Part shown: positions 4,647 to 7,590 of the stretch, piece after piece
How the letters are laid out: every line of letters starts with the position of its first letter
Position numbering within the stretch: position 1 is the stretch's first letter
DNA from: Akkermansiaceae bacterium
GTDB taxonomy: Bacteria > Verrucomicrobiota > Verrucomicrobiia > Verrucomicrobiales > Akkermansiaceae
DNA length: 59,887 nt
Reading direction: 5' to 3'
Assembly (NCBI GenBank): GCA_030725745.1
Contig: JANRFH010000051.1
Coordinates: forward strand, 1 to 59,887
Position numbers and translations under genes: made by a program
The notes under the pieces: model-generated
Database searches by the model: none
Told to the model about the DNA's origin: nothing
What the model saw: only the letters and a program-made list of their open reading frames with translations

Positions 4647-4737
4647 ATCTCCCACTGCCTGAGCGAGCCGAGGGTCAGTGAGATTGGCGTCTAGGAATCG
4701 TCTTCTGTCAGACACTGAAAATACCCATACCCACATC

Positions 4738-4985
4738 AACCCCAAGCGGGGTTGCGTATTTCAGCCTAGAGTTGACGCAGTGAAACGGAGGCTACCCTAG
4801 GATGCTGTGACTGAGGATGATCCAACCCCAATCGGGGTTGTGTCCATGCCGTCACCACCCCCGCGCATGGACGCAACACCTTTGGCGTTGTAATCATCTA
4901 CGGTTCAATACCCAGGGTAGGCTACGCGCCTCTCCGAACCGCTCCGCCAACCCTGGGCTGAAATACGCAAGCCCGTTGGGCTAGT
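4738..4985. repeat. Two inverted, diverged copies of a structured intergenic repeat
   Basis: The gap 4647-5043 holds no gene. It contains two short perfect hairpins, CAACCCC/GGGGTTG at 4738-4754 and 4823-4840, and an imperfect one at 4874-4890. The segment 4755-4800 (GCGTATTTCAGCC then GGCTACCCTAGG) is repeated as a diverged reverse complement at 4907-4970 (CCCAGGGTAGGCT then GGGCTGAAATACGC). The block looks like a non-coding repeat that folds into stem-loops. No transposase is adjacent. Confidence 0.6.
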
Positions 4986-5043: not shown

Positions 5044-6759
5044 CTAGTTTCCTAGTCGCTCGACAAACTCATCAAGCAGCGCCTTGAGCCGTGCCTCGCC
5101 GGCAATTTTCTTCGGCACATCGAAGCCAATCCAGATCGCGGTGGAACCGCTGGGGCCGAGCCGCAAGGTCCAGGCATCCCTTTCCGAGCCAGTGGCGCCC
5201 GTGAAGCAGCGTGTTCCGGCACGATCCTGCAACACGCCGACCGCTTCGGAAGCTGCCTGCTCGCTGAGCGCCGCATCCCTTCTCGGCTCTGCCTTGTAAA
5301 TGAGCTTGCCCTCGGAATCCTTGATGCTCTCGATGAAATACGGCTTCGGTTTCTTCCCCTTGTTTCCAAGTGTGGCCAGCCCCACGGACATTTCCATGGT
5401 CGTGGCGGCCACCGCTCCGCGAAATAGATCCTCGGTCTCAAGGAATGGCCCCGAGATCCCGCAACGTTTCGCCAACCGCACAACCTCCGCCGGTCCGATC
5501 TGCCGACCCGTCTGAATGGGCTTCCCGGCAAAGACTAGCTTCCTCCGCTCCGCCGCGGCCGCCGCCACGAAAGGCTCAAAGGCTGAGCCAAGATCCCGCT
5601 TCGAACGTGTCCGATCATAAGCGGAGTGCGAGTAATCACGGCCGCCAAGCAAGGCGAGCACCGCTCCGGTATTCGTCTGGGTGGTCACTGCCGCGCATTG
5701 CAGATATTCCGCTTCGCTGCCCGGCTCGTGTGATGAAAGTGTGGGATGCTCCCATCCACCCTCCGCCTCGATATCAGAAAGCGCACGCCGCAGCTCATTC
5801 TCCAGCCGCTTCTGCCAGCTAGCGTCAAGAGTGGTTGTCACCCGCAGGCCACCGGATACGATTTCCTCCGTTTCCATGATGCGCTCAAGCTCTGCCTTCA
5901 CATGGCGCATGGCATAGGAGGAAACGGTCGCTCCCACTGTCGGCTTACCCTCATCCGCCAAGCGTATTTCAAGCTCCTTCACCGCATCCGCACGCTCCTG
6001 GGTGATGAATCCCGCAGCCACCATGCGCGCGAGCGTCTGATTCCGCTGCTCCATAGCTGCATCCAAATTCCGCAGCGGAGAGAAGATGTGCGGCCCGCGG
6101 ATGATGCCAACAATCATCGCGCATTCACCCGGATGTAGTTGAGATACCGTTTTCCCGAAATAGATCTGCGCTGCCTGCTCGACCCCGTAGGCACCTGAGC
6201 CGAAGTAGATGCGGTTCAAGTAGCTCGTCAGAATTTCATCCTTCGAATACCTGCCCTCAATCCTAAGGGTGAGCGCGATCTCCACCGCCTTCCGATGCAA
6301 CGATTTCTGGCGCATGTCGAAGGTGTTGCGCGCGAGCTGCATAGTCAGCGTCGATGCACCCTGAGTGAAATCCCTGTCCTTAATATTCCTAACCGTAGCT
6401 CGTAGCAGCCCCTTGAAGTCCACGCCCGAGTGATTGAAGAAATTCGCGTCCTCGCGTGCCGCAAGCGCCTCGACGAGAAAGTCGGGGATTTCCTCACGCT
6501 TCACGAGCTTCCTACCGGCTCCGCCCACGCCTTCGAGCGCCTTGCCATTCCTATCGTAATAAAGTGTCGCGGTGGGAAGCTGGACAACCTCATCGAGATC
6601 ATACTTCGAAGCGGCGATGAAATAGAAAAAACACACGCCGAGTCCGACGACGACAGCCGCAACGAAAATTTGGAAAAGCACCACCGCGGGCGCGTGCAGC
6701 CAACCGGGTAGGCAACGCTTCCACAGCGAGGGTTTTGTAATGGGGCGCCAAGTTGACAT
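5044..6759 (-). CDS. Class A penicillin-binding protein with a degenerate transpeptidase domain
   Basis: 571 residues from the ATG at 6759; a GTG 33 bases further upstream is less likely. A transmembrane segment lies near residues 30-52. The glycosyltransferase (GT51) domain is intact: AREDANFFNHSGVD with the catalytic Glu, QGASTLTMQLARN, and LTSYLNRIYFGSGAYGVEQA. It should therefore polymerise lipid II glycan. The transpeptidase domain is recognisable but all its active-site motifs are changed. SxxK reads SAFE (in DLGSAFEPF), KTG reads FTG (in RCFTGATGSERDAW), and no clear SxN is seen. The protein is also short for a bifunctional enzyme. It may act as a glycosyltransferase with a structural second domain. 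Confidence 0.85.
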   Translation of the reverse strand: MSTWRPITKPSLWKRCLPGWLHAPAVVLFQIFVAAVVVGLGVCFFYFIAASKYDLDEVVQLPTATLYYDRNGKALEGVGGAGRKLVKREEIPDFLVEALAAREDANFFNHSGVDFKGLLRATVRNIKDRDFTQGASTLTMQLARNTFDMRQKSLHRKAVEIALTLRIEGRYSKDEILTSYLNRIYFGSGAYGVEQAAQIYFGKTVSQLHPGECAMIVGIIRGPHIFSPLRNLDAAMEQRNQTLARMVAAGFITQERADAVKELEIRLADEGKPTVGATVSSYAMRHVKAELERIMETEEIVSGGLRVTTTLDASWQKRLENELRRALSDIEAEGGWEHPTLSSHEPGSEAEYLQCAAVTTQTNTGAVLALLGGRDYSHSAYDRTRSKRDLGSAFEPFVAAAAAERRKLVFAGKPIQTGRQIGPAEVVRLAKRCGISGPFLETEDLFRGAVAATTMEMSVGLATLGNKGKKPKPYFIESIKDSEGKLIYKAEPRRDAALSEQAASEAVGVLQDRAGTRCFTGATGSERDAWTLRLGPSGSTAIWIGFDVPKKIAGEARLKALLDEFVERLGN

Positions 6760-6840
6760 AATTAGGTTCGCTGTCCTCGCGGACGGGAACACAAATTCAG
6801 CGCTAGACCAACACCAAACCGCCTATCGCGATTTGGTGGA

Positions 6841-7590
6841 TCACTCCGCAGGGTAGCGGAAATGGCCGACGATTTGGTAGCTGAAAAGGGCGTTCTCCCA
6901 TTTCACTCCACCACCAGCTGGGTGATGTGCAACCCATGGCGCGGAGCCTTCGCTCGCAGGCCCGGGAACTACGATGCCGATGTGCGTCTCTGCATTCGAA
7001 AGCGCCCAGACGACGATATCGCCCACCTTGTAATCCTCAGAATGGCGAGAAGCGCTCAGCTCCTGACCCTCGCGGCTGAAAAAGCGCTGAAGATTCGGAA
7101 CGCGACGATGATCGATGTTTTCATCCGTGCCAGTGGCTGCCCAAAGCTGCGGGTAGACGCGGAAATTCGCTTCCATGTCTTCATGGACTTTTTCCTGAAG
7201 ATCGATGCCTAGTGAGCGGTAGCTGCGCACGACGAGATCTGCCGCAACGCCTTTGCCAGCAGGAACATCGCCGCCGGGATAGGTGATCTTGTAGTATGAA
7301 GGATCATACGAAATATCGCTGCCAGAGTATCTCAGAGCCTCCGCAGCTAGCTTGGAGCCGAAGTCTTGGGAGGAGGCTAGCTGCTGAATGATGACCTGAT
7401 TTTCCGCCTTCGTCGGGTCATCATCGGATGCCAAGGCCTTGGTTACCAACGGCTTACCGAAAAAGATACAGGCACCAGCTGCGATCGCTACAATCACCCA
7501 TCCGCCGAACAAATTCGGCTTTTTCGGCTTCTGTGGGCGAGGGCCGATATATTCAATTGCGCTGTAATATCCTGAACGTGAACGAGCCAT
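6841..7590 (-). CDS. DUF1287 protein, membrane-anchored, expected Cys missing
   Basis: 249 residues. An N-terminal membrane anchor lies near residues 29-47. The DUF1287 domain, thought to have an NlpC/P60-like peptidase fold, carries its usual landmarks: YPGGDVP, VHEDMEANFRVYP, NIDHRRVPNLQRFF, GDIVVW and THIGIV. Family members usually read GVCTDVV and VVHN, supplying a Cys and an Asn near the presumed active site; here these positions read GVAADLV and VAHH. The His of HIGIV remains. It may therefore be a non-catalytic relative. It lies 81 bp upstream of the start of the penicillin-binding protein, on the same strand. Confidence 0.75.
   Translation of the reverse strand: MARSRSGYYSAIEYIGPRPQKPKKPNLFGGWVIVAIAAGACIFFGKPLVTKALASDDDPTKAENQVIIQQLASSQDFGSKLAAEALRYSGSDISYDPSYYKITYPGGDVPAGKGVAADLVVRSYRSLGIDLQEKVHEDMEANFRVYPQLWAATGTDENIDHRRVPNLQRFFSREGQELSASRHSEDYKVGDIVVWALSNAETHIGIVVPGPASEGSAPWVAHHPAGGGVKWENALFSYQIVGHFRYPAE

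Follow-up and report, generated by a model that had tools for sequence, protein, structure and literature searches.

The window analysed here is a stretch of 59,887 nucleotides from an Akkermansiaceae bacterium (contig JANRFH010000051.1). On its minus strand, which carries all the features of the gene given below, it contains at 5044..6759 a gene for a protein that resembles class A penicillin-binding proteins (PBPs) and ends in a pseudo-transpeptidase (pseudo-TP) domain; we refer to this gene and its orthologues as S-type, or S. The uninterrupted open reading frame (5044-6792, 582 aa) has its likely start at the ATG at 6759, as the alignment of many orthologues begins only at residues 9-14, and an in-frame GTG at 6792 is also possible. 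The N-terminal helix of the predicted model (residues 30-62, 6607..6705) is likely to be a membrane anchor, a role suggested by the architecture of class A PBPs. The GT51 glycosyltransferase (GT) domain (residues 91-257, 6022..6522) is matched by Pfam PF00912 with a score of 193.9 bits and its motifs are intact, as an earlier note on this DNA had read them: the catalytic Glu114 of the ED motif (6451..6453) is kept in 107/107 rows of the larger alignment described below and the second glutamate, Glu171 of RKxxE (6280..6282), in 106/107, with L159 as the sole exception, while the GT motifs as a whole are conserved over the 77 rows of the smaller one.

The remaining C-terminal part of the protein, the pseudo-TP domain (residues 352-582, 5047..5739, ~230 residues), was assigned from the predicted model and from a weak match to PF00905 (26.2 bits), which covers residues 459-524 only and lies C-terminal to the SxxK helix. 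The same note had given SAFE for the SxxK motif and FTG for KTG, and both can be read in the gene: the former corresponds to S403-A-F-E406 (5575..5586, with GAG as the Glu codon) and the latter to F530-T-G (residues 530-532, 5197..5205). The third motif, SxN, had been described as not visible, and the reason is an outright deletion, since ~41 residues including SxN are missing at residues 419-431 (5500..5538) in comparison with intact paralogues. Further downstream, a W-x-G-x-D motif (residues 554-558, 5119..5133) is invariant across the S-type rows and is found in most of the intact PBPs aligned as well.

Class A PBPs are among the main targets of antibiotics and serve as textbook examples of bifunctional enzymes. 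Like E. coli PBP1a and PBP1b or S. aureus PBP2, S has the N-terminal helix, the GT51 domain with its catalytic glutamate and motifs, a linker and a C-terminal domain predicted to have the penicillin-binding-type TP fold. Unlike them, it has lost SxxK, SxN and KTG together with the ~41 residues, and for this reason we do not expect it to be bifunctional. The match to the NCBIfam PBP1A family (TIGR02074) reaches 359.3 bits, below the curated cut-off of 508.75. S presumably resembles the monofunctional GTs (Mgt/MtgA/SgtB) in possessing GT activity only; however, it carries a full pseudo-TP domain and groups beside class A PBPs (in a tree that held no MtgA), and its assignment as an MtgA-type monofunctional GT was rejected on account of this additional domain and of the TIGR02070 score (122 bits, cut-off 182.65).

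The loss of the motifs was followed in two alignments of S-type proteins, the first of 77 rows and the second of 107 rows, i.e. 106 distinct proteins, with the window gene counted twice. Both hold only the sequences that were fetched rather than all matches, and many of the genomes are fragmented assemblies; for instance, L075 (468 aa), which reaches a contig end before KTG, is included in the 77-row alignment and left out of the larger one. The 107 rows were chosen by length (500-690 aa) and by a higher score with a pseudo-TP profile than with a profile of the intact class A paralogue B, so that the count of motif-less rows is partly conditional on this selection. Neither SxxK nor KTG occurs near the expected columns in any of these 107 rows, all of them from Akkermansiaceae. 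The SxN columns read S-R-N in 33/33 aligned B paralogues versus gaps in 77/77 S-type rows, and the stretch that starts at the SxxK lysine position and runs through SxN has a median length of 60 residues in B versus 19 in S. The position of the old SxxK lysine is occupied by E, T, A, S, Y, V, Q, I or L. Of 20 loci examined from the 76 genomes of the genus Akkermansia, all 20 lacked SxxK, SxN and KTG, including the one from G565, for which the earlier match had covered the GT half only. All three motifs are present in 16/16 inspected rows of outgroup class A PBPs from other families, one of which ends at a contig end behind KTG. The earlier proposal that transpeptidase function has really been lost is strongly supported at the level of sequence, given that orthologues with intact SxxK and KTG were sought and none was found among the 107 rows. 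The earlier count of three independent losses did not hold: the losses are common to the family and look ancestral, rather than like independent recent hits on the window gene.

The residues of the pseudo-TP domain that are invariant family-wide (G376, G402, G459, G479, W554, G556 and D558) are mainly of a structural kind, and because these Gly, Trp and Asp residues belong mostly to the fold, the analysis did not point to a conserved binding surface. Likewise, no alternative catalytic cluster was seen at the old TP site in the 107-row alignment, and the residues retained in at least 75% of its rows include no visible conserved polar cluster. These observations bear on the idea that the domain is a sensor with a ligand of its own (a stem peptide, a glycan or a precursor) that tunes the GT activity. 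The overall fold kept in the models and a T-G-R-x-x-G segment beside the old SxN site, each residue of which is retained in 92-103 of the 107 rows, would agree with such a role; however, with the old lysine position variable and the polar cluster missing at this threshold, we regard it as highly improbable.

Selection on the two domains was estimated from 104 close pairs drawn from 47 loci (dS 0.1-1 in both domains, GT dN < 0.15), which are not independent, as sequences are shared between pairs. The median dN/dS is 0.085 for GT and 0.124 for pseudo-TP (maxima 0.262 and 0.442), so that, by this measure, purifying selection acts on the pseudo-TP domain as well. Distant pairs with Akkermansia gave pseudo-TP values up to ~1 or above among the pairs listed, but these are saturated and were set aside. 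Between genera, the pseudo-TP sequence diverges much faster than that of GT. The domain is predicted to fold well: AlphaFold2 gave a mean pLDDT of 88.4 for the window protein, whose pseudo-TP domain reaches at least 90 in 19 of 24 ten-residue blocks, and a mean of 85.7 for an Akkermansia member. A VIA-align search with the window model returned exclusively PBPs or annotated peptidoglycan glycosyltransferases in its top 50 rows (Z 26-32).

A protein search of 195 Akkermansiaceae genomes gave matches in all of them, with full-length orthologues from 76% identity downwards among the matches listed, and the S-type was seen in 12 of the 16 sampled genera (among the matches listed, with rechecks). 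The genus of the window (g1) has an S-type match in 42/44 genomes among the matches listed (a 520-aa piece in G098), the two genomes without one, G168 and G182, having both been rechecked. In Akkermansia (g3), an S-type open frame of 504-700 aa is present in 75 of the 76 genomes searched; the remaining one, G574, is 84% complete. No S match was obtained in G003 (g4, 69% complete), G004 and G017 (g5), G005, G018, G029 (g6), G015 (g15), G060, G068, G081, G097 (g13) and G151 (g9). The genera without S are g4, represented by one genome, g5, g6 and g15, and in single genomes of g13 and g9 the gene is absent or present as fragments only. Seven further rechecked genomes contain S fragments only, of ~170-430 aa and in several cases at a contig end; in G008, the eighth, a piece of 468 aa lies at a contig end. 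Outside Akkermansiaceae, no S-type protein was found among the matches listed at the order and phylum levels; these align only up to model position ~400-475, ending about the SxxK region, and their open frames are mostly of 700-900 aa, with a few shorter ones (e.g. 495, 587, 621).

The phylogenetic tree was calculated from GT columns only, for 86 of 101 rows (15 near-redundant ones were dropped), with a quick method, midpoint rooting and no bootstrap. A single branch (SH-aLRT 99) sets off all 46 S-type rows, including those from Akkermansia, and no intact protein lies inside the S group. As the TP domain is ignored in this tree, it bears on the concern about the selection of rows. One ancestral loss of the TP motifs is the simplest reading of these sequences, and it agrees with the deletion of the SxN segment common to the S-type rows. 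Altogether, family-wide loss within one group, purifying selection and a good predicted fold indicate that S is neither a sequencing error nor decaying. SAFE is a single base away from SAFK, yet the loss in all aligned orthologues, the low dN/dS, the intact open reading frames and the failure to find, within the S group, the motif-bearing relatives that this reading predicts leave a practically negligible probability for an error of sequencing, an assembly artefact or a decaying gene.

The gene neighbourhood was analysed for those 103 S loci whose upstream sequence extends to 1.3 kb or more. The intact class A PBP B is encoded directly upstream of S (same strand, within 600 nt) at 48 of them; the other 55, including the window, lack this arrangement. 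In the window's lineage B is located on another contig (L082), beside a divergent gene whose homologues (32-49% identity) are found beside B in many tandem genomes. Since the neighbour of the lone B thus also adjoins B in tandem genomes, it was apparently S that moved. In two genomes of the genus Akkermansia, a large protein is encoded directly upstream of S in place of B (L080 6752-9304 and L081 2445-4916); the L080 copy is a TPR protein and the L081 copy belongs to the same cluster.

The genome of the window encodes four GT51 proteins detected with PF00912: S, B, a third one that we call PBP1C-like on the basis of a weak BiPBP_C match, and C. Intact TP motifs are present in B (SIFK, SRN, KTG) and in the third protein (STLK, SLN, KTG), and three more proteins with strong PF00905 matches and no GT51 domain were taken as class B PBPs. 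The C protein (814 aa; L083 3327-5768, plus strand; G000:C47:55.8-58.3 kb) has an intact GT51 domain, with TAFY, SKI and KGG in place of SxxK, SxN and KTG. Its relatives were collected as the nearest 30 matches to the window's C and seven further loci (37 in total), 33 of which were aligned. All 33 have Thr as the first residue of SxxK and none has Lys as the fourth; 32 of them have also lost the SxN asparagine, and KTG is kept in many. Three of the four unaligned loci have the same GTA[FL] and SKI signature and one, L297, was not caught by the pattern. C-type matches occur in 58/60 family genomes (rows above 490 bits), and on the GT-only tree the 7 C rows form one group (SH-aLRT 99) apart from S. 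C has thus lost the TP nucleophile and lysine separately from S, and two of the four class A PBPs in this genome appear unable to transpeptidate.

The reading that we prefer, with a probability of roughly two in three, is that S is a glycan polymerase whose strands are cross-linked by other PBPs, and that it retains its pseudo-TP domain as a scaffold for docking or regulation. S would have originated when a bifunctional class A PBP was duplicated in the ancestor of Akkermansiaceae or soon after; SxxK, KTG and the SxN segment would have been lost early, and the TP domain retained since then as a compact, folded, non-catalytic domain. Anchored in the membrane, the GT51 domain of S most likely turns lipid II into uncross-linked strands, and cross-linking would be provided by the intact sister B, often encoded directly upstream, or by class B PBPs. 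Motif loss, a single group on the GT tree, constraint and the tandem arrangement are established as far as sequence comparison goes; polymerase activity would follow from the conserved GT51 motifs, and S should not bind penicillin and may dock to a partner. A regulatory or partner-binding role of the pseudo-TP domain fits the purifying selection, the confidently predicted fold and the intact tandem partner at about half of the loci, and cross-linking by other proteins is supported by the two class A PBPs with intact TP and three presumed class B PBPs that the genome retains. On the other side, neither the pairing with B nor S itself is universal in the family, and the pseudo-TP domain diverges much faster than GT between genera.

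This divergence, together with the structural appearance of most invariant residues, could also mean that the pseudo-TP domain is a structural remnant that stabilises GT, S being in effect a monofunctional GT whose C-terminal half has no regulatory role. We consider this unlikely, as ~230 residues have been kept across 12 genera, are predicted to fold and are under purifying selection in close pairs, and a pure remnant should be dispensable, because free-standing GT51 enzymes such as Mgt exist, as noted in a 2015 review (PMC4632607). Nearly all of the relatives examined, among them the gut bacterium Akkermansia, are in the same state, and this suggests that the dead TP half is kept for a purpose. 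Such a purpose might be insensitivity to beta-lactams, S working on as a polymerase when other PBPs are acylated; the acylation motif is gone from S, and C is retained as another TP-dead class A PBP. The gain would be little, however, since ordinary class A PBPs generally stay active as GTs after acylation at the TP site. Moreover, the habitats of the relatives (best 80 of 585 loci) appear varied and give no hint of beta-lactams as a shared pressure, which makes this purpose quite improbable.

How strands made by a docking, TP-dead polymerase could be cross-linked, as we propose for S, may be judged from laboratory variants of class A PBPs. The review describes TPase-dead S. pneumoniae PBP2A and E. 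coli PBP1A/1B (PMC4632607), and a TPase-deficient form of C. difficile PBP1 appears in another study (PMC12539705). S is like these mutants in that the TP active site is lost and GT is intact; the mutants are man-made, whereas in S this state occurs naturally and widely across a bacterial family. According to the review, class B PBPs of S. pneumoniae were active in TPase reactions with a TPase-mutated class A PBP, and TPase-dead PBP1B combined with a GTase mutant showed no significant TPase activity (PMC4632607). The latter result speaks against a simple handover of strands from S to B; taken together, the two make cross-linking by class B PBPs, or within a physical complex of S and B, more likely than free handover. 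In C. difficile, the class B PBP3 reportedly has a non-catalytic role with a class A PBP in which its catalytic activity is dispensable (PMC12539705); unlike this class B protein with catalytic activity, S is of class A type and has no TP motifs. Akkermansia is counted as having an aPBP in the available portion of PMC8406291, where TP motifs are not discussed, and in the portions of the open-licence PMC literature covered, no class A PBP of Verrucomicrobiota is described as naturally TP-dead.

We speculate, more tentatively, that Akkermansiaceae have split polymerisation from cross-linking within their set of class A PBPs, with S and C as old GT-only lineages of pseudo-transpeptidases and S as a non-catalytic partner subunit of B in a heteromeric peptidoglycan synthase, in which one TP domain would now serve for docking or allosteric control. 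As a class A PBP that occurs naturally across a family with its TP domain dead yet preserved, S offers a ready system for studying non-catalytic roles of TP domains. Furthermore, counting GT51 proteins as penicillin targets would lead to an overestimate of the cross-linking capacity of Akkermansiaceae.

Several features were observed around the S genes. On the 3' side of the gene in the window, two near-identical palindromic 21-mers lie 86 bases apart (4737-4843). A 49-nt imperfect inverted repeat overlaps the first of them with one of its arms; the core pattern of the 21-mers has no other occurrence within the window. A Fic-domain protein is encoded directly behind the S gene in one relative (L098 4043-5080). 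The upstream neighbour of S in the window is a DUF1287 protein (6841..7590, minus strand), which adjoins S only in the closest relatives of the window. Its GVCTD motif reads GVAAD, with Ala for the canonical Cys, and the same substitution is found in 7/7 relatives in which the gene adjoins S and in one further copy (L270). The Cys is kept in the other 24/25 fetched DUF1287 loci, including a paralogue from the same genome (L255), and from this pattern of substitution the neighbour of S is likely to be a second pseudoenzyme.
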